Below are positions 17,221 to 62,182 of a stretch of DNA of 64,000 nucleotides, in pieces. Source of the stretch: Xestospongia bergquistia. Lineage: Eukaryota; Porifera; Demospongiae; Haplosclerida; Petrosiidae. The DNA lies in assembly GCA_963965975.1 (NCBI GenBank), contig OZ014420.1, forward strand, positions 4,738,001 to 4,802,000, in the 5' to 3' direction. Below the pieces are notes generated by a model. It worked only from the letters and a program-made list of their open reading frames with translations. It did not search any database and was not told where the DNA came from. The stretch's first letter is position 1. Each line of letters opens with the position of its first letter. Made by a program: the position numbers and the translations under genes.

Positions 17221-17408
17221 ATCGCTTCTCGGCCTATCGGCTAAGATCAAGTAGAAAGAAACTGTTCTTTCGAGTTTAATAGCTCGAACGAGGATAATGC
17301 GTCCTCAAGCTATTAACCCCAATTTTTCTACTAGGAGTTGTGTGTGAAGCTTGCTTCCCTCACTCCACGGGTTGCCCTGGTATTGCAGTACATCCAGGTG
17401 TGGCCCAC
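17221..17408 (+). ncRNA. U2: U2 snRNA, variant with altered branch-site recognition segment
   Basis: The 5' end ATCGCTTCTCGGCC...GGCTAAGATCAAGT is nearly identical to canonical U2 stem I. CTGTTCTT and a stem-loop IIa with compensated base pairs (TTCGAG/CTCGAA) follow. Next come stem IIb, an Sm site (AATTTTTC near 17321) and the 3' domain with the highly conserved CCTGGTATTGCAGTAC block at 17377-17392. Length is about 188 nt, as expected. The seven bases that carry GUAGUA in other U2 RNAs are here AGAAAGAAA (17253-17261). Without GUAGUA this RNA should not pair normally with the branch-point sequence, so this copy is probably a pseudogene, most likely the scar of a LINE insertion at this target. 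Confidence 0.85.
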
Positions 17409-17690
17409 TTCCCCTTATAGGGGATAATTTTTCAGAAAACAATGATAAAAAATTTTAAACAATATTTTAAAGTTGGATGAACCTACTCTTTGTGTCCAAG
17501 TATGGTTGTAATTCAACAAACATGTGGGTTGTGGTACAATTGTTTCTGGACGCTCTTGCTAAACACGGTCCAGCCTCCAATATTGTTATTGCCAATTTCA
17601 TCGGCTCCAAAACAGGTAGGGGTCCATAAGAGGATATTTCTGAGAGATAAATCCAAACTGGCTAACTCAAGCTAAATCTCAATCTCAGGA
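17409..17690. repeat. U2 3' flank, shared with third U2 copy, and LINE 5' junction zone
   Basis: 17409-17505 matches the flank after the other U2 3' fragment (19614-19700), ending near 'CTACTCTTTGT'. 17505-17545 matches again at 19815-19850 ('AATTCAACAAA-ATGTGGGTTGTGGTA'). 17548-17630 encodes a short frame that may be LINE coding remnant. Confidence 0.55.
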
Positions 17691-19292: not shown

Positions 19293-19464
19293 TTACCTTA
19301 TACAATAATCATATTTTATTATTTTATTTTGTTTCCTATAACTTTCTTGTTTTTCTTCCAATTCTATTGAGGGGCTTGGCTGGCGACAGCCACACTATAC
19401 TTTGTTTTTCACTTTGTTTGTGTATAGCCCTGTCTTTATTATATTTATGTAGAATTGTTTAAAA
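19293..19464 (+). mobile_element. Second U2-targeting LINE tail (3' UTR only)
   Basis: Shares with the first element's 3' UTR the GGCGACAGCCACACTAT-like block (19390-19408) followed by a T-rich stretch, and runs into U2 CTGTTCTTTCGAG at 19465. It is a severely 5'-truncated copy of the same or a sister family. Confidence 0.65.
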
Positions 19465-19613
19465 CTGTTCTTTCGAGTTTAATAGCTTGAACGAGGATAA
19501 TGCATCCTCAAGCTATTAACCCCAATTTTTCTACTAGGAGTTGTGTGTGAAGCTTGCTTCCCTCACTCCACGGGTTGCCCTGGTATTGCAGTATATCCAG
19601 GTGTGGCCCACTT
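19465..19613 (+). pseudogene. U2: U2 snRNA 3' two-thirds, headless copy
   Basis: Nearly identical to 17262-17408, including stem-loops IIa/IIb, Sm site, and the TGGTATTGCAGTA block. It starts abruptly at CTGTTC after a LINE tail; no stem I or promoter. Downstream flank matches 17409-17505. Confidence 0.82.
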
Positions 19614-20110
19614 CCCCTTATAGGGGATAATTTTTCAGATAACAATGATAAAAATTTTAAACAATATCTTAAAGTTGGATGAACCTACTCTTTGTATCTA
19701 AGTACTTTCCATATGGTCGATGATGATAATCTGGAACCCCAAAATATTGTAGGCATTGTATATAATATGCCTAGTGTACTCTTAACTGACCAATATGCAG
19801 ATCAATACGTTGCAATTCAACAAAAATGTGGGTTGTGGTAAAATGAGTCCAAAGTAGGAATGGAAGTATATTCCCACAAAATAGCCACAATCACTACTCA
19901 GCATATAAGCTTGTAAGTGGGAGTGCTTGAGTCATGGGACCTGTCAAATAAAAAGCACACTAAAAATACGAAAGATTGGTCCTAATTACACCAAACTGTT
20001 TAGAAAGCTATGTGTTACCAAATAAACAAAATCTGGAAGAACCATCAGCTGACCATATAATTAATTATCTTCTAAAACTCAGACTTATTTTATCTGTATT
20101 TGTTTGTTAT
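19614..20110. other. Duplicated U2 flank and intergenic DNA
   Basis: Begins with ~90 bp shared with the flank of the first U2 copy, then AT-rich non-coding sequence with no recognised feature. Confidence 0.4.
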
Positions 20111-22168: not shown

Positions 22169-23068
22169 TTAGTACAAGTTTACCTTTTTACTTCCGAATT
22201 CGTAGCAGAGAGCAGTATTTAAATTCATGTAACCAAACTCAGTATATGAATATATATTTAATTACATATACTCTACATGTTCACAAAAGGGGTTAACAAT
22301 GTGTTTGTTTAGTCTCATTGTATAGGTCTATTGTACTCTTTATGTTTGATTCTTTAACTTTATGACTAAACAGTTTGGTTTTACCCATCACTAGTTTTAC
22401 AACTTGTTGAAGAACAATAATAATTATAAGTGTTCAAGACATTTTTTTATTATCAACAATCAAAACTATCCAGCTTGCAAGAAGCTATAAGTGGGTGTGG
22501 TTTATTTATGGATAAGTAAATGGATGAATGGATGGGTCAATAGGATGGACAGATGGATTGTTACATAAATCAATTTGTCATTCTTTATATATAGATAAGT
22601 ATCTTCAGTCTTTCTGGATCAGTAAGAAGTGAGATATACATAGGGTAAGTTCAGTTGTGTAAATTAATATAAGAAAATAAATCTGACTATATACTCTTTT
22701 AACATTAAGGAATTTGAGATTGTTGTCTCTAGCAAACCTAAGTTAACGACATATCTGTACTTTTGATAAATTAAAAAGCTCAAGCTATTTTCAGTCAATC
22801 TAGAGTTTCAACAGGTTTGACAAAACAAAAATGTCAACTCCAAGTCAGAAATAGTTGATCTAATACATCGTAAGACCTCACTAGATTATCTCCAGTCCAG
22901 TCATTAATGTTTCACTATAGAATTAAAGAAAATAATTAGTACAAGATTTGTCAAATTAATAATAGATCAAACTTACAGTCTAACTTCACATTATTTTGTG
23001 CACCTATATTGCAAATCAAAGGGTAAAATAAAACTGATACAGCGTCTATGTCTCATTTACTTCAATAG
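22169..23068. other. Intergenic; includes a repeat shared with the NLR2 flank
   Basis: 22866-22990 matches 47676-47790, downstream of an NLR pseudogene ('ATCTCCAGTCCAGT', 'TTTCACTATAGAATTAAA', 'GTGCACCTATAT'). 23030-23068 matches the intron before NLR DEATH exons ('CTATGTCTCATTTACTTC' then AATAG). So an NLR-cluster segment was copied here. Confidence 0.55.
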
Positions 23069-23321
23069 AATTGACATCAAATAATGCTCTAAGACTTCTT
23101 GTTAAGAGTGGTTTTGTTGTTAAAGACAAGTGGATTGAACTCACTAGTCTACTAGGTGTCTCACTAGTGGAGAGGAGAAGACTCAAGAAAATGGCCAGCA
23201 GTGATCAAGACTACCACTTTGCTTTAGAGGAAGGTTTACAATGGCGGATTACAAACAGTACTGACCCCTCTTGGGAAGAACTCATCTCAGCTATTGAGAA
23301 CTGTAGAAATAAGGAAATAGC
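23069..23321 (+). pseudogene. Orphan NLR DEATH-domain exon
   Basis: Preceded by the same TTCAATAG acceptor as the DEATH exons at 39438 and 59569 and about 85-90% similar to them: the L-L-V-K-S-G-F-V-V start, G-V-S-L-x-E-R-R-R-L-K helix, and S-W-E-E-L-I-S-A-I-E-N-C end. There is no 2A exon, CARD-like exon or NACHT exon nearby. Where the exon should continue (I-A-V-I-M-R-K) the frame runs directly into hAT transposase sequence at about 23322. A broken copy of the NLR N-terminus. Confidence 0.8.
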
Positions 23322-24590
23322 TAAATTAATCAAGTTTTCTCCAAAAAGAGCACATTTATTTTCAGAGAAATTGGCCCAATCTGAAGATCTAGAAACTGGA
23401 GTTACCATTAAACAACTTTGTCCTACAAGATGGACAGCTAGAACATAGGCAATTGGTGCTGTTCTAACTGACTACACTGTCCTAATGGAAACACTTGATG
23501 AAATTCATCAGACAACACACGATGAATATGGACTAAAAGCTGCAGGTCTTTAATCTGCCTTAGAAAAATTTTCAACATTATTTGGATTGAAATTGGGATA
23601 CCTAATCTTTGGAGCTTCTGAAACACTTTCTAAATCATTGCAGGGTAAGGATACAACTGTTCAAGAAGCACTCTCAGCTGTTAACCTAGCTAAAGCTTTC
23701 TACAGAAGGCAAAGGGTAGATGAAGCTTTTTCTCACTTTTATGATGAAGTAGTTGACATTGCCCAGAAAATGAGCATAGGTGGCCCTCAATTACCTCGAT
23801 ACAGGAGACTACCAAAAAGACTTGAAGATGGAGGCGAACCACACAGGTATGATGCACCAAGAGACTACTTTCACCACCAATATTTTGAGGCTTGTGACTT
23901 ACTTCTTCGTGAATTAGAAGACAGGTTTGAGCAACAAGCATTATTACCACCTATTCTATCCCTTGAAAATATTCTGTTAAAGGCTGCAAATGGTGAAGCT
24001 TACGAAGAAGATTTTCAAATGGCTAAAATTTCTTGCTATAAGGATGATATCAATTTTGATCACCTGCAAAAACAACTTCCTCTTTGTGCTGATTTAATTC
24101 GACAAGCCCTTCCTAGTGTTAAACAAGTTACCTCCATGCGCACCATTTGTGAAGTAATGAACACACAACAAGTTTATAAATCAATGCTATATGAAGTACA
24201 CAATCTTTTAAGGTTGTATTTAACAATTCCTATAACATCAGCTACAGCTGAGAGGTCATTTTCTGCACTGTGAAATGTTCTTACTTACTTACGTTCATCT
24301 ATGACTGAACAGAGATTGAACAACTGTATGCTACTCCACATACACAAGCAGTTAACTGATTCTCTTGATTTGATAGAAATTGCCAAGGAATTTATTGTTA
24401 TAAATGCTGAAAGGAAGCTTTACTTTGGCACATTCACAAACATTTAACTTTCATAATTTAAAAAATAATTTCTTTTTTGAACTAATTTATAATTATAGTT
24501 AAATTTTTGTGACCTTAAATATTTATACTCCCTTCATGGTCAGCCCCCCCAATATTACTGGCTCTTATACACCTATGACTGTAGTGTCCT
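23322..24590 (+). mobile_element. hAT transposon (ZMYM1-like), 3' half
   Basis: Continues in frame from the DEATH exon. Visible parts are the C-P-T-R-W-T-A-R-T motif of the transposase core, a long helical region, and the hAT C-terminal dimerisation motif (T-S-A-T-A-E-R-S-F-S-A-L, near 24237-24270). It is interrupted by TAG at 23446, TAA near 23551 and TGA at 24271. After the last stop of the frame (~24446) there is an AT-rich tail and a terminal CCCCCCC segment (24544-24550). Complementary in content to the 5' half at 15141-16390, but ~80 residues between them are missing from both. Dead. Confidence 0.8.
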
Positions 24591-39153: not shown

Positions 39154-42100
39154 ATGATTGATACAAGTCAATGGAGAATTAGTATTGGGTCATGGTATTG
39201 TCATCAAATATCATATACTACTAAAAAGGGAACTACTAGTACTGATATCACACAATGGGTGGAGTCAATATGGTCTGGAGGATTAGGAGATGAGGATGGT
39301 AGTAACATGACCTCTCTAGTCTTGTTTCTCTTGCTTCTCATTTTATCAGGTGATATTGAACTCAATCCTGGACCTAAAACAGGTAAATATTAAAACATAT
39401 AACTGATACAGGGACTATGTCTCATTTACTTCAATAGAATTGACATCAAGTAATTCTCTAAGAGTTCTTGTTAAGAGTGGTTTTGTTGTTAAAGATAAAT
39501 GGACGCAACTCACTAGTCTATTAGGTGTATCACTAGATGAGAGGAGAAGACTCAAGACAATGGCCAGCAGTGATCAAGACTACCACTTTGCTTTAGAGGA
39601 AGGTTTACAATGGTGGATTACAAACAGTGCTGACCCCTCTTGGGAAGAACTCGTCTCAGCTATTGAGAACTGTGGAGATAAAGATATAGCTGTTATAATG
39701 AGAAAAGAACTAGATATTAGGAATGAAGGTAATTAGTCTAATGTTAATATACGTATGCCATTAGTACAATTGTGTAGACACATTTACTCCAAGTGAACTA
39801 TTTCGTACTCATTCTGCTGACCTTAGTGGTATCATTACTCCTATCCTTACTAGTGTAACTAATGTACTGTATGCTAAAGAGTTGATAACATTTGACACTA
39901 AGACTAACATATCATCAATAACAGGAGAAGATGATTATAAAAAATCTAGTAAGTTGGTAGATGTGTTACAGAGGGATTTAAAGGCACATAGAGATCCATA
40001 CCAGTATCTAGTAAAATTTTGTAATGTATTAAGAACCCAACAACATCAGAGACTAAGAGAGATTACTACCTTTATATTACAGCAATTAGGTGAGTCAATT
40101 ATTAATTTATAGTTTACAATATGTTATTATATAATTATGTTATTTTATTAAGGTGAAAACACAGATGATGAAGTATCACCTAATTGTTCATTAGACCCTT
40201 CTGTTCAGCGATACTGTGACATTATGTTAGAGCGATATAAAAATCAGTTTATTGTCCCTACAGACTGGCCACCACCAGTTGGGCAAGACTTCTTTGGAAG
40301 ATTAGCACTACTACAAACACAAGACAGACATGCCACTCCTCAAACAATACTACAGAAACAATGGTGTATGTTAAGAGGATTTGTTGATATGGTCCCATAT
40401 TTTACTCACGATAAACAGATAGATATCCAAGATATTCTTAAACCATGCGATAGTGGTCAGTCTCTTAGAGTAATAGTTGATGGTCCTCCTGGTATTGGTA
40501 AAACCACACTCTGTCATAAACTATTAAATATGTGGGCTAAAGGAGAACTCACACATGGACAATATAACTTGGTACTTTACTGTCCTCTCAGAAATGACAA
40601 GGTGGCCCAAGCTAGTTCACTAGCAGACTTGTCTGTTTACCAAAGTCCAACAGTCAAAAAAGTTGCTGATTGGATTACAATTACTGAGGGAGAAGGACTA
40701 CTAATAATCTTTGATGGCTGGGATGAATTAAATACAGATCTCAGACAATCTTCACTAGCTGCTAGAATAATTCGTAAAGATATATTAGCCAAATGTTCAG
40801 TGATTGTTACTTCTCGTAGCTATGCCTCATATTCACTGTTTGAAGTTTCTTCAATTAACAGACATGTTGAAGTCATGGGATTTTCAGAAGAAGAAATTAT
40901 GAGAGTGATCAGAGGAAAACTGGAAGAGGAACCAGCAAAATGTCTTATAGAAAATTTAGTAGTACGAGATGACATAATGTCATTATGTTATGTACCACTA
41001 ATTTGTTCCATAGTCATCTTAATCTTTTGTAAATCAGAAGATGGACAGTTACCAACAACACTCACAGAACTATATGAAAAATTTATCCTACAAACTATCA
41101 AAAGGCATATGAAAATTAACAATGTTCAAGATGTTCAACTTAAACAATTACACAACCTCAATCATATACCATCAGTTATGGATGAATGTTTCCAAGAAAT
41201 CTGTAAGTTCGCATACATGAACTTGAAAGAAAACAATCCGAGAATGACATTTTCTTTAGACCAACTCTATCAGTCTCTTAATCAATCTGTGAAGGAAAAC
41301 TATCTTGGACTAATGGCAACATTTACTATGTATGATGAAGAGAGCTATCAATTTCTTCATCTCAGTATCCAGGAGTTTCTAGCAGCATGGTGGATAGTTA
41401 AATCTGAGAAGACAGAACAAGTGTTTGCAGAATTCTTTGATAATGATCACTTTAGAATGTGTCTGAGGTTTGTGGCAGGTCTAACTCACCTTGAACATGA
41501 TAGCTATCAACAATATTTTAATAAAGAACTTGACTTGCAATGCTTGAGAAGCCCATTGTTTGGATTTGAAGTATGTTATCATTCTAACTTCAATCAGACA
41601 TATGTAAGGCCACATGGTATACCTATTCTCTCTTACGACTTAGATGTCCTTCTCCTCCATCTCTTATATGAATCACAGAACACAACATTATGTCATACAT
41701 TGGCACAATCCATGAAGAACCAGTCACTATGTCTCCATAGAGTTGATTTTACATTAACATTGTTTGACCTATTATGTCTGAGTTTTTTCCTCAATAATTC
41801 AAACGTGGCATGGAATTATTTGGACCTGGAAAAACGAAATGGACAGGAAATACAACTCCTTGCTTCTACATTAACAAACCACAATCAGTGTAAAAGACTA
41901 GAAGTAGAGGTAACCTTACCACTTTATCACAAAGTAGATATAATTACTTCCTTTCACAACCTTCAAGAATCTTTTATTACCTTAGTTTCACATGAAGCAT
42001 TAGAACTTGATGTATATCAAATGGCTGTAGTACTTTTGGTATTAATAAAACAGCATCTAAGCATACTACATTTCACTATAGACGTTGGATTAATACTTCC

Positions 42101-45002: not shown

Positions 45003-47675
45003 CTCAATGGAGAAGACTCAAGATAATGGCCAGCAATGATCAAGACTACCACTTTCCTTTAGAGGAAGGTTTACAATGGTGGATTGCAAACAGTACTGAC
45101 CTCTCTTGGGAAAACCTTATCTCAGCTGTTGAGAACTGTGGAGATAAGGATATAGTTTTATAGTGAGATCTAGAAAAAAACTAGATGTAAAGAATGAAGG
45201 TTAGTTATAGTTCTACATTATAGCTACACTCACTCCAAGTGAATGTTCTTACTCACTTTACTAATCTTAGTGAGGCTAATACTCATACTCTTACCAGTGT
45301 AACTAATGTATATATTGTATGCTAAAGGATTGACATCGACACTAAATAAATATATTGTCAATAACAGGAGAGGACAATTACACAAAATCTATTTGGTAGA
45401 TGTGTTACAGAGACAGCTACATTAACATAGAGATCCATACCAGTATCTAGTTAATATTTGTCATGTATTAAGAAACCAACAACATCAGAGACTAAGAGAG
45501 ATTACTACCTTTATATTACAACAATTAGGTGAGTTAATTAATGTATTACTTTATGTACCTTACTTCGTTAAGTTAATGATGATGCTCCACCCACCAATTT
45601 ATTAGACTCTGATTTTCAGAAATATTATGATATTATGATAGACCAATACAAATACCAATCTATTGTCCCTACAGACTGGCCACTACCAGTTGGACAAGAT
45701 TAGCACTACTACAAACAAGACAGACATGTCACTCCTCAACAATACTACAGAAACAATGGTGTATGTTAAGAGGGCAAGTTGATAAAATACCTCAAGTTAC
45801 TCAAGATAAACAGATAAATATTCGGGATATTCTTAAACCATGTGATAGTGGTCAGTCTCTTAGTGTGATAGTTGATGGTTCTCCTGGTATTGGTAAGACA
45901 TCACTCTGTCATAAATTATTAAATATGTGGGCTAAAAGAGAGCTTAGACATGGACAATATAACTTGGTACTTTACTGTCCTCTCAGAAATGACATGGTGG
46001 CTCAAGCTAGTACACTATCAAAGTTCAACAGTTTCTATTGTTGTAGAGTGGATGACAACTACAGAGGGAGAAGGACTACTAATCATCTTTGATTGTTGGG
46101 ATGAATTGAGTACACATCTCAGACAATCCTCGTTAGCAGCTAAAATAGTTCATAAAAAATATATTAGCCAAATGTTCAGTGATTGTTACTTCTTGTAGTT
46201 ATGCCTTCTATTCTCTCTTCAATATTTCTTCAATTAACAGACATGTTGAAGTGTTGAGATTTTGAGAAGTGTTGAGTTAAGGAAATTGAGGCAGCGGTCA
46301 AAGGAACATTAGAAAAGGAACCAAATCTTGCAGAGAGAGTCATTTAAGATCTTGAAATACGAGGTGATGTGCAGTCATTGTGTTATGTACCACTTGTGTG
46401 TTCCATAGTTATCTCAAGTTTACCATGAGAGAGATGGACAGTTACCAATAACACTTACAGAGAATTTTATCTTACAAACTGTCAGAAGACATGTTGAAAT
46501 TAAAAGGATTAACAATATAGAACCTGTGTCAAACATAATCAGAATCCATGAAAAACCACACACTTTGTCTAGATATAATAAGATTCTCACTATTTGACAT
46601 AATGCGTCCTGGATTTTTAAAAAATAATTCTAACATAACATGGAATTATATGGACCTCATAGATCTAAATAGCCTACAAGTACAACTCCTTACTAATGCT
46701 TTATGAACAGAATTATGTGTCAAAGACTAGAGGTAGAAGTGTGGTTTGGAGATAATAACCAAAAGACTACAAAGCTATTATTTTGGTTATCATTCACTCA
46801 CAATCCTCAAGAGTGTCGTATTACATTATACTCACTTCCACAGTGTATCTGATGTTACTCTAGTGCTATCACACTTTATAAACTACAACATTTAAATATA
46901 TTACACTTTGATCTAACATATACTGGATATCTATATAAAAAGTATTGTTATCAATATACCATCTCTTTACACTGATATAGTTGATATAGTCTACAGTGTG
47001 ATTAAAGGAGTAACAAGAAACAAATCAATTTTAAACATTTGTGATTAAATGTGAATATATCTTTAAATCAGAATTGACAGATGTTTCACTATATAAGAAA
47101 AGAGTTTTGTTATAAAGTAGTTGAACAATTACTAAGAGATAATCACACACTATGAGCTCTGAAACTGGAAAGCAGTTACAATGACTTAATCCCATCACTG
47201 CATGTACATAATAAGAGGTGAACACACCACTTATTGCTCTGGACATCAAATTTCAAAGACTCTACCATCAACAGACATCATTACTTTCTCAACATTGTCT
47301 TATCCTAGATAAAAAACTATACTTAGACCTACTACTTCTATTAGTTCAATGTCATCCTAATCTACAACTTTAAATATCACTAGACCAAACTGAGAGAGTT
47401 ATTAACTATTTAATATTCTACAGACTGATACTACATTTAAGGCTTTGAAAGTGGAGATATGGAATGATAGCATTATATTGTATGACAGTATGGGTCCTAC
47501 TTTACAAGACATGCTAACACTAAACCAAACAATAGCATACTTTGAGCTTGAAACTCCATATGTGTATGATTCTATTTTCATTACTTATCTGTCATTTCTA
47601 ACAAGTGGTCTCTCAATTAAAATTTTAAATATATACATATATATAAGACCAAACCTTACAATGAGTAATTATTAG
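45003..47675 (+). pseudogene. NLR2: decayed NLR
   Basis: Order is preserved but no frame is long. DEATH exon relic 45003-45195 (S-S/N-D-Q-D-Y-H-F, G-L-Q-W-W-I) with stops; CARD-like exon relic 45225-45530; NACHT 45590-46450 with Walker A G-S-P-G-I-G-K-T-S near 45885 and several frameshifts (e.g. near 45705 and 46020). Most of the region between the NACHT and the LRRs is deleted near 46510-46540. LRR remnants run from 46550 to 47675, ending early after T-Y-L-S-F-L-T-S-G-L-S. The closest match is NLR3 in the NACHT part ('MLRGQVDKIPQVTQDKQI'). Dead gene. Confidence 0.88.
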
Positions 47676-52243: not shown

Positions 52244-55200
52244 ATGATCAATATTTGTCAATGGAGAGTTACTATTGGATTATGGTATTATCATCAGATA
52301 CCATATACTACTAAAAAGGGAATCACTACTAATATCTCAGAATGGATGGAGTTGCTATGGTCTGGAGGACCAGTTGATGAGTGTAATGGTAACCTGATCT
52401 TCTCTCTAGTCTTGTTTCTTTTACTTCTCATTTTATCAGGTGACATTGAACTCAACCCTGGACCTATAACAGGTAAACATAATACAATGTATGAAGACAG
52501 TGATAGCAATAGTATCATCTATAACTTCAAATGTCCAATAATTATAGTGTAGGAAAGTATATTTACATAGACAGCTTATTCAACAATTGCATTATATTTA
52601 CTATTAATAATTATTGTTTAGATCTCAGAAGTTAGCAATTTATCATAATTTTAAATGGATCGTACTCCATGTAACCATATGTTTACTAAAATAGTAAATC
52701 ACGTGTTAGAGTATAAGGAATAATTTAATAATGCAATCAGGATTCTGGTTACATTGTGGTTACATATAATATCTCTTAATTGTTTTGTATAATACCAAAA
52801 ATAGTGTAACTTTATACTTAAATCCAATTAAGAAGCCAAAAGTAATCATAATAGAAGACATCAACAAGAAATGGATACTATTTCAATGAAGTATTTGTAA
52901 CTAACTAGTAGTTATATACAAGCAAGCTCTATGTACAGTATCACATGTTGACTTTATTGATATATTCTGCAAACAAGTTAGGATTTAAGGTTTATTTATT
53001 TATCTCGTAAAATAAGTACATAAACAACAAAAATTCATAATTGAACAAATCACTTGATAATTTCTTAATAGCATTCTATTATCCTGTATTGTTGTGGTCT
53101 CTTTCATTCACATCCATCACATATTTTAGTAACCTAGATTGTGCCATCACATCCTTGGTTTAAGTAATCATTGCTTTAGGTATTTTATACAACAGTAGAA
53201 TGTAACAATCCAAGTCAACATACATACATTGTACATGCACAGGTGACACAAATAATTATAGGAATGCCTAGTATGTTAAAATGTCAGACAGTAATACAAA
53301 GCAGAAAACATACATTTAATTTGCAGGCTATGAAGTACTAACTTCAAACAATGCATTCCTGCTACTTCATAAATGTGGGTTTCAAGTCTTTAGCCACTGG
53401 GAAAGACTGGCTCAGTTCCTTCAAGTGTCTCTTGATGAGAGAAAGAGGCTAAGAGAATCAGGTCGGATAAGTGATAACTATAATCTTATCTTAGAGGAAG
53501 CTTTGGATTGGTGGATAACTCATTCCAGTCAGCCATCATGGGAAGAGTTAGTGAGAGCTGTTAATGACTGTGGAGAGAGAAACACTGCTTATGAAATGAG
53601 AAAGAAATTAAACATGGAAGATAACAATTATGGTATGTTTATTATAATTTTGCTGTGTTTTTATGAATAGAGTTATCTTTTCTAGCTAACATTGTTCAAC
53701 CCAGTTCAATACACCCCAATGTTCAATGTCCAATGTCCAATGATGCTCCACCCACAAGTTCAATACACCCTGATGTTCAGCAATATTGCAACATCATGAT
53801 AGACCAATACAAATACCAACCTATTGTCCCTACAGACTGGCCACCACCAGTTGGACAAGATTTCTTTGGAAGATTAGCACTACTACAAACACAAGACAGA
53901 CATGCCACTCCTCAAACAATACTACTGAAACAATGGTATATGTTAAGAGGACAAGTTGATAAAATACCTCAAGTTACTCAAGATAAACAAATAGATATTC
54001 AGGATGTTCTTAAACCATGTGATAGTGGTCAGTCTCTTAGAGTAGTAGTTGATGGTCCTCCTGGTATTGGTAAGACAACACTTTGTCGTAAATTATTAAA
54101 TATGTGGGCTAAAAGAGAACTTAGACATAGACAATATAACTTGGTACTTTACTGTCCTCTCAGAAATGACAAGGTGGCTCAAGCTAGCACATTAGCAGAT
54201 CTGTCTGTTTACCAAAGTCCAAAAGTCACAAAACTTGTTGAGTGGATGACAGTTATGGAGGGAGAAGGACTACTGATAATATTTGATGGTTGGGATGAAT
54301 TAAGTACAGATCTCAGACAATCTTCACTAGCAGCTAGAATAATTCGTAGAGAGATACTAGCCACATGTTCAGTAATTGTTACCTCTCGTAGCTATGCCTC
54401 TTACTCACTGTTGAAAATATTTTCAGTTAACAGACATATTGAAATCATAGGATTTTCTGAAAAGGAAATTAATGAAGTGGTTAAAGGAACACTGGAAAAG
54501 GAACCACAATTAGCAGAAAAACTCATCCAAGATCTTGAAATACGAGGTGATGTCCAGTCATTGTGTTATGTACCACTAATTTGTTCTTTAGTCATTTTAG
54601 TCTATCGTAAATCAAATGGACAGTTACCAATAACACTTACAGAATTGTATGAGAATTTTATCCTACAAACTATTAGGAGACATGTTGAAATTAAGAGTAC
54701 TCACAATATTGAACCAAGACAACTACACAGCCTTCATAATCTACCATCAGTTGTGGATGTACCATTCAAAGAAATGTGTCAGTTTGCTTACCTCAGTTTG
54801 AAAGAAAGCAATCCAAAAATGAGATTTTCTTTAGTTCAACTCCATCAGTCTTTTGATCACTCAGTGAAGGAAGGCTATTTTGGACTAATGACAACATTTT
54901 CTGTTTATGATGAAGAGAGTTTTCAATTCCTTCACTTGAGTATCCAAGAATTTCTAGCAGCATGGTGGATAGCTAAATATGAGAAGACAGAAGAAGTATT
55001 TGCAGACTACTTTGATAATGATCATTTTAGAATGTGTCTTAGGTTTATTGCAGGTCTGACTCACCTTGAACATGAGATCTATCAACAATATTTTAACAAA
55101 GTACTTGATCTTCAATGTAAGAGAAAACCATTGTTTGGACCTGATGCCTCATACTACTCTCATTTCAGACAGAATTCAACAATTACTAAACCACACTGTT

Positions 55201-56954
55201 ATAATCCTTTCTGCGATGAATTGGATGTTTTTCTCATCCATCTATTGTTTGAATCACAAAACATCAAATTATGTAAATTATTGTCACAATCCATGAAGAA
55301 CCACTCACTTTGTCTCCATAGAGTAAAATCATCACTATTTGACATACTATGTCTTGGCTTTTTCTTGAACAACTCTAACATAACATGGAATTATTTGGAC
55401 CTAAAGCTAAAAGGGCAGGAAGTACAACTCCTTGCTAATACATTGATGACCAGTGTTCAATCAAAGAACTTAGAGATTAGTGAGTGGATTCTAAATTATG
55501 ACCGAAAGGTTAAAAAAAACCTAGTGAAATTATATCAGTCATCATTTGCACACAACCTTCATGAATGTTATATTACATTACATCCATACACACCACTGGA
55601 TCTACCTGATGTTTCTAAAATACTACTGGATTTAATAAAACAACCAAATTTGAAGATATTACACTTTAATACAGTATACTGGAGAAGAAATTGGGAAGGT
55701 TATTTGCAGATAGACAAGAGCATTTTATCTAAATTGGAGGAGAGTTTATACATCAATAGCATTCTAAAAGAACTAGTGCTAGATGTTGATGCTCATGTTC
55801 CCAATGAGTATCAAGACCTACCTCTCTCTGACATTGCTGATATAGTTGACAGTGTCATTAAAGGAGTAACTAAAAACAAATCAATTCAAACTCTTTCATT
55901 AAAATGGGAAGGTCGTTTTTTACGTAAAAAGAGAGAAAGAAATGAAGAAACAGTTAAACAGTTACTAAGGGATAACCACACACTACAAGCTCTTAAACTG
56001 AGATTACCTGCTCAGTTTATATCATCACTGAATATAATAGAGGTGAATATACCACTTACTGCTTTAGAAATTGAAGGGTCTCATCGACTAACATCAATAC
56101 TTACTCAACATATCAGGGGACTACACTGTCTTATACTGCATGATCCATGTCCACAAACTCTATTATTTCAATGTCATTCCAATCTACAGCAACTTCAACT
56201 ATCATTAGATGCAGTTGACAGTGTTATTGAGCTATTTACTACTCTACAGAGTAATACCACACTTAAGACTTTGAGAGTGGAAATGAAGAATACAGACATG
56301 TTTGACAGAGTAGGTCCTAGTTTACAAGATATGCTGATACTAAACAGAACAGTAAAATATCTTGAAATTCTTATGAGTGACTTCATTAATACCATTCCCA
56401 GTACTTACTTGTCATTCCTAACAACTGGTCTCTCACACAACACCAGTCTACAAGAGTTGAGTGTACCCATTCCACTGTCAAATACTAACTATGAACAGAT
56501 AAAATCTTTCTTTAATGTTATCAAAAACATGGAAATACTCACAGAAATTAAAGTTAACTTCATACTAGATCAAACATATACATCTAGTGGTTGTAGTTAT
56601 GGAGAGAGAAAACAAATAATGACACCATTGTTCTATGAACAAGGACTATGTCTTATTTCTAAGGTTTTAGTGTCACACACAACTGTGAAGTTTTTCCATA
56701 TACAATGTGAAAATGTCAACAAAGAACTATCTCAACATAACTGGATAGAACTAACACAACAATTTTGGCAAACTATCTTTCTTCATCCCACACTTCAGTA
56801 TATTGGAATTAAGTCACTATTTGCCATCTCAGTCATAAAGGATACTCTACAATTACAAGAGAAGACATTAATTGACACACACAAACATCAACAACCACTA
56901 AAACCTCTACCAATAATAGATGGCAATATTAACATGGATAATACAAAATTCTAA
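52244..56954 (+). CDS. NLR3: 2A leader - DEATH - NACHT - LRR receptor, intact
   Basis: Exons 52244-52472, 53327-53632 and 53686-56954; all GT-AG, phase 1; total 3804 bp = 1267 residues. The leader is again 73 residues, ending G-D-I-E-L-N-P-G/P (2A at 52439-52465). The DEATH domain is more diverged than those of NLR1/NLR4. There is no CARD-like exon: DEATH is joined by a short Ser/Pro-rich linker to the NACHT exon. The NACHT shows G-P-P-G-I-G-K-T-T (near 54057), L-I-I-F-D-G-W-D-E-L, V-T-S-R-S, C-Y-V-P-L-I-C and F-L-H-L-S-I-Q-E-F-L-A-A. Irregular LRRs follow. The first intron is 854 bp, far longer than the 55 bp in NLR1 and NLR4. No disruption in the coding exons. Confidence 0.88.
52439..52465 (+). 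promoter_or_regulatory. 2A ribosome-skipping site in NLR3
   Basis: Encodes G-D-I-E-L-N-P-G-P after L-L-L-L-I-L-S. Same codon position (Gly73/Pro74) as in NLR1 despite leader divergence elsewhere. Confidence 0.85.
52473..53326. other. Long first intron of NLR3
   Basis: AT-rich 854-bp intron; donor GTAAAC, acceptor TTTGCAG. No embedded gene recognised. Confidence 0.5.
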
Positions 56955-59281: not shown

Positions 59282-62182
59282 ATGATTGATATCTGTCAAT
59301 GGAGAGTTAGTATTGGGTTATGGTATTGTCATCAGATATCATATACTACTAAAAAGGGAACTACTACTGATATCTCACAATGGGTGGAGTCAATATGGTC
59401 TGGAGGATTAGGAGATGAGGATGGTAGTATCCTGACCTTCTCTCTAGTCTTGTTTCTCTTACTGTTCCTCATTTTATCAGGTGATATTGAACTCAATCCT
59501 GGACCTAAAACAGGTAAACATTAAAACATATAACTGATACAGGGACTATGTCTCATTTACTTCAATAGAATTGACATCAAGTAATGCTCTAAGACTTCTT
59601 GTTAAGAGTGGTTTTGTTGTTAAAGATAAATGGACTCAAGTCACTAGTCTAGTAGGTGTCTCACTGGAGGAGAGGAGAAGACTCAAGACAACAGCCAGCA
59701 GTGATCAAGACTACCACTTTGCTTTAGATGAAGGTTTGCAATGGTGGATTGTAAACAGCGCTGACCCCTCTTGAGAAGAACTCATCTCAGCTGTTGAGAA
59801 CTGTTGAGATAAGGATATAGCTGTTATAATGATAAAATGACTAGATATTAGGAATGAAGGTAACTGGTTTAATGTTAATATACATATGCCATTAGTACAA
59901 TTGTGTAGACACAGTTACTCCAAGTGAACTATTTCGTACTCATTCTGCTGACCTTAGTGGTATCATTACTCCTATCCTTACTAGTGTAACTAATATACTG
60001 TATGCTAAAGGACTGATATCCTACAAACTATCAAAAGGCATATGAAAATTAACAATGTTCAAGATGTTCAACTTAAACAATTACACAACCTCAATCATAT
60101 ACCATCAGTTATGGATGAATGTTTCCAAGAAATCTGTAAGTTTGCATACATGAACTTGAAAGAAAACAATCCGAGAATGATATTTTCTTTAGACCAACTC
60201 TATCAGTCTCTTAATCAATCTGTGAAGGAAAACTATCTTGGACTAATGGCAACATTTACTATGTATGATGAAGAGAGCTATCAATTTCTTCATCTCAGTA
60301 TCCAGTAGTTTCTAGCAGCATGGTGGATAGCTAAATATGTGAAAACTGAGGAAGTGTTTGTGGAACATTTTGATAATTATCACTTTAGAATGTGTCTGAG
60401 GTTTATAGCAGGTCTAACTCACCTTGAACATGATAGCTATCAACAATATTTTAACAAACAACTTGACTTACAATGTATAAAGAATCCATTGTTTGGATTT
60501 GGAGTACATTATCACTCTCATTTCAACCAGACACATGTAAAGGCACATGGCGTATATAATGTCTCTGATAAATTGGATATTCTTCTCCTTCATCTCTTGT
60601 AAGAATCACAGAACACAACATTATGTCATACATTAGCACAATCCATGAAGAACCAGTCACTATGTCTCCATAGAGTTGATTTTACATTAACATTGTTTGA
60701 CCTATTATGTCTGAGTTTTTTCCTCAATAACTCAAACATGGCATGGAACTATTTGGAACAAAATGGACTACAAATGAAACTCCTTGCTTCTACATTAATG
60801 AACCAGAATCAATGTAAAAGACTAGAAGTAGAGATAACCTTACCACTTTATCAGAAAGTAGATATAATTACTTCCTTTCACAACCTTCAAGAATATTATA
60901 TTACCTTTGCCTCATATCCGGATCCACTATTAGAACTTGATGTATATCAAATGGCTGCAGTACTTTCGGTATTAATAAAACAGCATCTAAATGTATTATA
61001 TTTCACTATAGATATTAGTTTAATGTTACCTTACATGAACTGAATATTGATATAGAATTTGAACTTCAACCTGGTGATTACTGTACTCTTGTTAATTTTG
61101 CTGACATAGTCAACAGTGTGATTAAAGGAGTTGCCAGAAATAAGTCAATTCAAACATTTTCATTTACTTGTTTGTCCAAAGAAACACTCTTTGGATTGGA
61201 AACTATACCAGATGAGTATAATCCACTAACAAGTAAGACTATCAAACACTTACTAAGAGACAATCATATACTACAAGCTCTTAAACTAAACATAAATGAT
61301 TATCTCATCCCATCACTGGATATAGTAGAAGTGAACACACTACTCACTGCTCTGGAGATTAAAGGGTTTCATCAACATCAACTGAAGGTGTTACTTTCGA
61401 AAGGAACATACAGTCTTATATTACATCAACTGTATCCACTTCCTCTATTATTTAAATGTCATCTTAATCTACAACAACTTCAACTATCACTAGACACAAC
61501 TGAGAGTGTTATTGAACTATTTACTATTCTACAGACTAATACTACACTTAAGGCTTTGAGAACGAATGTATCAAAAAACAACTCAATTTTTGAAAGAATT
61601 GGTCCTAGCTTACAGAAAATGTTAACTCTAAATCAAGCAAAAGATTGTCTGGAGATTGACTTAATTGGATTTGATACTACACCTAATTACACTAGTTACT
61701 TGTCATTTTTAACAACTGGTCTCTCACATAACACTAGCCTAAAAGAGTTGAATATAGCGATTCCCTTCTCAAGTACTAACTATGAACAGCTTGCAGATCT
61801 CTTTAAAGTTATCTCTCACAAAAACATGCTCACAGAACTTAAACTTGACTTTGTACTAGCTCAGTCATATGACTCATTTATGCCTAGTGATTGTCTTAAG
61901 AGGGAACAGACAGCGACTCGAATCCTTCAGGAACAGAGACTACCTCTTATTACTAAATTGTTAGAATCACATCCATCTATAAGACTTCTTCACTTACAAT
62001 GCTACGACACAGTATCTTGTATGGATTGGTTACAAGAAGAATTTTTGGGAACACTTGACCTCTATCCCTCACTTGAGTATATAGGGATTGCTTTTACCAC
62101 ATCATATGGCTATCACACCGAAAACTACATAACTACACCATCATGGACTACTAGAACATTTCATATCATTCTTAAAATTTGA
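59282..62182 (+). pseudogene. NLR4: 2A leader NLR with NACHT core deleted
   Basis: Closest to NLR1. The leader exon 59282-59513 is intact (74-residue leader, 2A at 59480-59506). The DEATH exon starts at 59569, with TGA replacing the Trp codon of the conserved P-S-W-E motif (59773-59775). The CARD-like exon (from ~59904) is cut at 60018 and joined to the NACHT exon downstream of the ATPase core, so Walker A, Walker B and sensor motifs are gone (~1.1 kb lost). Further stops: TAG in the Q-E-F-L-A-A motif (60306-60308) and TAA at 60600-60602; an internal deletion lies near 61035. LRR frame 61118-62182 is open to the same end as NLR1. The leader plus partial DEATH could still be translated. Confidence 0.9.
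59480..59506 (+). promoter_or_regulatory. 2A ribosome-skipping site in NLR4 pseudogene
   Basis: Encodes G-D-I-E-L-N-P-G-P after F-L-I-L-S. One extra hydrophobic residue (74-residue leader) relative to NLR1 and NLR3. Confidence 0.85.

Follow-up and report, generated by a model that had tools for sequence, protein, structure and literature searches.

The first exon of the NLR-type receptor gene NLR1 of the sponge Xestospongia bergquistia is, with a probability that we put at about two in three, a portable StopGo leader exon, whose translation would yield a free leader and a cytosolic receptor beginning with proline, the unskipped minority of chains perhaps serving as a signal-anchor form. The exon is common to several unrelated immune-type gene families, and about a hundred genes appear to start with it. 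The original prediction had it for NLR1, where it is partly supported, and understates the scale.

NLR1 lies in what is here called the window, the whole stretch of 64,000 nucleotides that was analysed. As had been claimed, its exon 1 encodes a 73-residue leader with a hydrophobic run, ends in GDIELNPG/P and is joined in frame, by predicted splicing, to DEATH, CARD, NACHT and LRR exons, the predicted product being of 1337 aa with the frame open on both sides of the 2A (Table 1). The NACHT domain scores 86.4 bits against a cut-off of 26.7 (E 2.5e-24), and the DEATH match (E 1.6e-4) is 0.4 bits short of its curated cut-off. Judged by predicted fold, NLR1 carries an N-terminal CARD and, with a model of pLDDT 77 that matched NLRP14, NLRP9, NLRC4 and RNase inhibitor at E 1.9e-6 to 3.7e-6, a C-terminal LRR; Pfam gave no match to the latter up to E 10, and a sequence comparison of the C-terminal part with the PDB gave none. 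A protein database search with NLR1 residues 1-250 was likewise without a match. DIELNPGP has the StopGo core (D/G/C/N)(V/I)ExNPGP, and the LLILSG before its D, compared by eye with PMC12846837, provides an L-rich context with an (A/S/C)G end and D at p12. A short leader initiated at the internal Met52, in sea urchin style, was rejected: 78 of the 81 leaders have Met at model column 1, preserving the long start, and Met52 is missing from the paralogue at 59483. The second leader of the window begins an open DEATH-NACHT gene, NLR2 (52244-56951), in which a CARD-exon match was looked for and none found; the NLR behind the third, 59282 to about 62100, is decayed, with three stops in its DEATH exon.

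Table 1. Leader-bearing receptor genes of the window and the parts of the NLR1 leader (window positions)
Feature	Positions	Strand	Remarks
NLR1 exon 1	39154..39382	+	73-residue leader, P-K-T and first base of the following codon
NLR1 leader head MIDTSQWRISIGSWYC, residues 1-16	39154..39201	+	family pN/pS 0.33
NLR1 hydrophobic run MTSLVLFLLLLILSG, residues 52-66	39307..39351	+	
NLR1 2A/StopGo octapeptide DIELNPGP	39352..39375	+	skip predicted between G73 and P74
NLR1 intron 1	39383..39437	+	GT-AG, phase 1, predicted
NLR1 exon 2, putative DEATH domain	39438..39728	+	22.2 bits, cut-off 22.6
NLR1 exon 3, CARD-fold domain	39778..40089	+	from predicted fold
NLR1 exon 4, NACHT and C-terminal LRR-fold part, up to stop codon	40153..43334	+	NACHT about 40467-40925
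NLR2 leader exon	52244..52472	+	DIELNPGP at 52442-52465
NLR2 DEATH exon	53327..53632	+	21.1 bits, cut-off 22.6; one of the splice choices that fit, with 12 combinations listed
NLR2 NACHT and C-terminal exon	53671..56951	+	
Third leader copy	59282..59513	+	DIELNPGP at 59483-59506; precedes decayed NLR

Chance is rejected as the source of the motif: the exact octapeptide occurs 161 times in the genome and its reversed-pattern control not at all, and the window has three matches at up to two mismatches against 0.03 expected. A search independent of the motif was made with a 64-residue leader consensus that ends before the octapeptide, the query itself having been built from motif-bearing leaders; it returned 157 candidates, of which 150 were scored, giving 150 matches. 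Query column 60 or beyond is reached in 140, and the exact octapeptide comes next in 131 of these. Two of the other nine have GVELNPGP in an open leader, one has DVELKPGP and six are damaged, with leader-exon frameshifts or stops, or degenerate motifs; a G at the first core position belongs to the expanded core, though with other upstream motifs (PMC12846837). Broken leaders may nevertheless keep the motif, as seen in at least three motif-bearing matches that hold a stop (C14:3868428, C14:910294 and C1:4066415) and in the decayed gene at 59483.

A leader match is lacking for 27 of the 161 motifs, three of which precede a NACHT and one a CHAT. Among those of the rest that were examined, at three loci (L017, L018 and L023) the frame continues past the motif, unlike that of leader genes, into cysteine-rich, PHD-finger-like stretches; only L023 has a PHD finger scoring above the Pfam cut-off, and it shows in addition a weak endonuclease-reverse-transcriptase match (21.5 bits against a cut-off of 27.4). 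Ten motif copies without a leader match stand about 10 to 172 kb apart at C4:8604524-8907047, with 23 identical bases in nine and a single change in one; in L068, the one of this set examined, the frame likewise enters a cysteine-rich, PHD-type stretch.

What stands behind the leader is varied. A NACHT follows within 6 kb on the same strand at 49 of the 161 motifs, 46 of them with a leader match, while as controls a NACHT is upstream of 18, which tandem clusters would give, and on the opposite strand for one. Seen from the receptor side, 48 of 88 NACHT places (a lower bound, 103 of 156 candidates having been scored) have the motif upstream, and 27 of the remaining 40 are in one C2 cluster. The DEATH exon of NLR1 type has 96 matches in the genome, and 76 of them are preceded by a motif at a distance of 2 kb or less. 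Very long ankyrin frames, 1472 to 2268 residues and unclosed within the stretch examined, come after the leader in L020, L026 and L109, the first two of which also show DEATH and CARD-like exons. L110 passes from the leader through another DEATH-like exon, for which Pfam had no match and which shares 55% identity with its counterpart in L112, to GBP domains (PF02263, E 1.1e-33). On C3, GBP lies within 7 kb downstream of five motifs, counted with the best 16 of 25 GBP matches, and ten strong GBP places are there; the five motifs, all leader-bearing, make up with their GBPs the gene cluster C3:1539769-1597213. A divergent 2A leader with a WRARIGLF head precedes TPR and CHAT domains (CHAT E 1.3e-44) in L011 (C1:2171467-2174936), the sole one of 13 CHAT places with the motif upstream and one that would be the simplest case for study. 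Pfam matches below cut-off suggest that L112 and L113 may be ZU5-type genes. In all, 97 of the 161 motifs have DEATH, NACHT, GBP or CHAT in range; another 41 have a leader and none of these four domain classes in range, and as most were covered in short pieces at best, they are unassigned and not a negative. Arrays of leader-DEATH genes amid ankyrin frames, which among the matches listed measure 955 to 2968 residues, occupy C14:643986-1234143 and 5490563-5555403.

There is a hint that the exon has moved between families, in that one starred branch of the leader tree unites two leaders of C11 NACHT genes and C4 leaders for which no NACHT lay in range. That branch is the one used from a tree of 81 rows and 78 columns that has an unsettled bootstrap and 46 of its 78 inner branches open, and whose gene classes were set partly by cluster position and not by a domain match for each.

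The borders of the leader agree with in-phase splicing. GT occupies the phase-1 place after 76 of the 81 leaders, the background being 6%, AG is the acceptor in 39 of the 40 DEATH exons whose match begins at column 1, and phase-compatible leader-DEATH introns number 37; left unspliced, 35 of 40 leader-DEATH pairs would be blocked by an in-frame stop. The leader is 61-77 residues long in 76 cases, with its hydrophobic window beginning near residue 50 and a run, free of D, E, K, R, N, Q, H and P, that has a median length of 17 residues (KD15 median 3.13). The context is L-rich with an SG or AG end in 80 of 81, and 43 read SGDIELNPGP and 30 SGDVELNPGP.

Selection was gauged on those 81 profile-chosen leaders, 25 of them representatives at below 80% DNA identity. 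They came from 105 rows (103 places), from which eight were dropped as duplicates or for having fewer than 20 upstream residues, and then 16 of 97 for want of a head match, these being retroelement-like rows or leaders with truncation or damage. The head, the hydrophobic end and the octapeptide are constrained and the middle is not: pN/pS is 0.33 for the first 16 residues (bootstrap 0.29-0.38), 0.98 for the middle (0.92-1.08), 0.61 for the distal part of the run (0.51-0.71) and 0.28 for the proximal part (0.20-0.34); the 0.11 of the octapeptide is biased, the aligned rows having been fetched by that motif. Since pS is 0.58 in the head and equally 0.58 in the middle, the constraint on the head acts on protein, and a DNA-level element is disfavoured. 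As paralogues the leaders do not count as independent, and gene conversion may occur among them. An earlier run, on 76 leaders picked by a letter pattern (M, W, R and others), had the same outcome as the profile-based choice. The head so preserved has the consensus MIDxxQWRxxIGLWYC.

The nearest relation in the literature is the sea urchin SpNLR2A (Roulston 2016, PMC4981915), with its 2A at the N-terminus of a DEATH-NACHT-LRR protein or close to it, a hydrophobic run before the motif and a large family: 85 of 241 sea urchin NLRs have a 2A, according to that paper's introduction, and 14 of 87 NCBI entries are of the 26-residue N-terminal form. The 73-residue sponge leader is not of this very-N-terminal, 26-residue signal-sequence form; given its length and a hydrophobic window near residue 50, it may be said to work like the sea urchin leader, not to be one. 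Apparently new are the greater length of the leader, which has a conserved head of its own ahead of the run, and the spread over unrelated families, with ankyrin, GBP and TPR-CHAT genes fronted too; the leader also differs in having an exon to itself, ending in phase 1. Skipping and targeting have been measured for SpNLR2A, the sponge leader being known here from sequence: SpNLR2A6 showed about 80% skipping in vitro, and with its P3A mutant, which cannot skip, mCherry went mainly to the Golgi (PMC4981915). Similar in another way are the viral L-rich StopGo/2A elements of motifs 2 and 6, of which motif 6 is active in vitro, with the core D(V/I)ExNPGP, G at p11, D at p12 and L-rich residues upstream; in contrast to these the sponge genes are those of cellular receptors, with mostly L and not S at p15 (PMC12846837). 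The receptor behind the leader resembles NLRC/NLRD of Dysidea avara in having DEATH or CARD with NACHT and LRR, and the main text of that paper, so far as available, contains none of '2A-like', '2A peptide', 'signal peptide' or 'leader' (PMC12909245).

From the L-rich context, the SG, the D at p12 and NPGP, together with the sea urchin skipping, we infer a free leader and a receptor initiated at Pro as the main outcome, which had been foreseen and which the selection makes likely. As the leader is made, its L-rich run and DIELNPG would be inside the exit tunnel, the bond between G73 and P74 would be skipped, the 73-residue leader released, and translation would resume to give a cytosolic DEATH-CARD-NACHT-LRR receptor with Pro at its start. 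Ribosome tunnels hold some 30-40 residues, and the run, 7-21 residues behind G73 at the time of the skip, would still be inside, so that the choice to skip would precede the binding of SRP to the run. In the minority of chains in which skipping fails, the run would emerge within a fusion protein and could, on the sea urchin analogy, act as a signal-anchor. The translocation of certain upstream proteins can itself inhibit the 2A reaction (PMC2978324). The predicted switch of receptor location had also been termed adjustable; a StopGo in frame between leader and NLR-type receptor, kept by selection, survives scrutiny, while adjustability finds no footing in the sequence, the near-invariant octapeptide and SG pointing to constitutive, efficient skipping. 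The released leader combines a conserved head with a hydrophobic segment close to the C-terminus and is probably, to go by the selection on it, a functional, membrane-seeking micropeptide. A disposable signal would not need a conserved head, and as the head is far from run and motif and yet kept by selection, the leader is proposed to act in its own right.

How much of this involves membranes at all may be doubted. Conceivably the run is just L-rich StopGo context, with all product cytosolic, no dual targeting, and the point of the leader being the released peptide or the Pro N-terminus; we consider this unlikely, though a contender to be reckoned with. Viral proteins are known to have L-rich residues with an (A/S/C)G end as a StopGo context (PMC12846837), L-runs also precede the 2A of this genome's PHD-type retroelement-like loci and so need not mean membrane, the proximal part of the run is more constrained than the distal, and a canonical 2A context predicts near-complete skipping, which would leave little fused product for dual targeting. 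Against it, the run exceeds a six-residue context, its distal part is still constrained, and in sea urchin the leader made unable to skip does target a reporter (PMC4981915). A less probable thought, one we would set well down the scale, is of a stress-linked attenuator, stop without go, at which ribosomes often fail to resume and the 2A tunes the amount of receptor and not its place. It would account for one leader fronting unrelated immune-type proteins, and Roulston and colleagues considered that 2A outcome may be tied to eEF2 activity and stress (PMC4981915).

Should the 2A be inactive in its host, the leader would be a plain signal-anchor or an uncleaved N-terminal extension. Skipping is after all predicted from sequence, and the leader is unlike the 26-residue sea urchin kind, but D, E, N, P, G and P are kept amid synonymous codon variation, which a plain anchor would not need, making this very improbable. 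Least credible of all is that the motif was left behind by an inserted retroelement, or belongs to a repeat that hitchhikes without a role. The genome's PHD-type loci do resemble the 2A of APE-type non-LTR retrotransposons, in which an L-run is followed by (C/S)G-D(V/I)ExNPGP, and the PHD finger and weak reverse-transcriptase match noted above lend the idea some colour; the retroelement-like rows, however, lack the MIDxxQWRxxIGLW head, the leaders are in phase with DEATH exons of open genes, the motif is kept in 131 of 140 with damage to leader exon or motif in six of the nine without it, and the neutral pN/pS looked for in head and hydrophobic end was not found. A relic is thus disfavoured.

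If the reading of NLR1 exon 1 as a portable StopGo leader is right, StopGo would be a routine two-product route from one immune mRNA, with 131 leader matches bearing the exact motif in several families. Tentatively, and here we would expect more often to be wrong than right, one may go further: the exon would have been shuffled onto NLR, DEATH-ankyrin, GBP and TPR-CHAT genes, each when switched on yielding, in equal number, the same sort of membrane-seeking leader micropeptide as a shared immune signal or brake, and StopGo, described as largely viral and rare among cellular genes (PMC12846837), would be a general cellular tool and not mainly a viral one. The set of leaders is natural comparative material for asking whether partial skipping serves two-compartment receptors and whether a discarded leader is active.

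A profile of 23 leaders found 518 proteins, with the exact motif in 116 of the 120 listed, one of which is the window's own and some identical to copies in the X. bergquistia genome; a leader profile had no match in the PDB or among viral contigs. Four relatives of the TPR-CHAT leader, at 96, 84, 79 and 79% identity, all keep AGDVEVNPGPLSK. Among the papers listed, none on 2A in sponge genes was found by title and abstract, a search that did not cover Rao 2025, reportedly a recent survey of cellular 2As, or Odon 2013, said to treat the 2A of APE-type non-LTR retrotransposons. A word search of PMC4981915, PMC12846837 and PMC8623073 met neither 'sponge' nor 'Amphimedon'.

The setting in an early animal, also part of the original prediction, agrees with the intact mitochondrial COI on contig C21, in which TGA is read as Trp and AGA/AGG sit at what we take to be conserved Arg positions. 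Among animals that mitochondrial code is one of sponges, cnidarians and placozoans, and is not known from bilaterians. Nuclear COI-like pieces with stops lie at C6:3154917-3155898 and 3199148-3200446.

Elsewhere in the window, a DEATH exon of NLR1 type, 81% identical, is at 23068-23334 with no leader or NACHT match nearby, and NLR remnants, pieces like NLR1 exons without a leader match, are at 45011-46526 and 47351-47619. Two U2 spliceosomal RNA genes are at 17221-17413 and 19426-19616 (135.7 and 94.9 bits).
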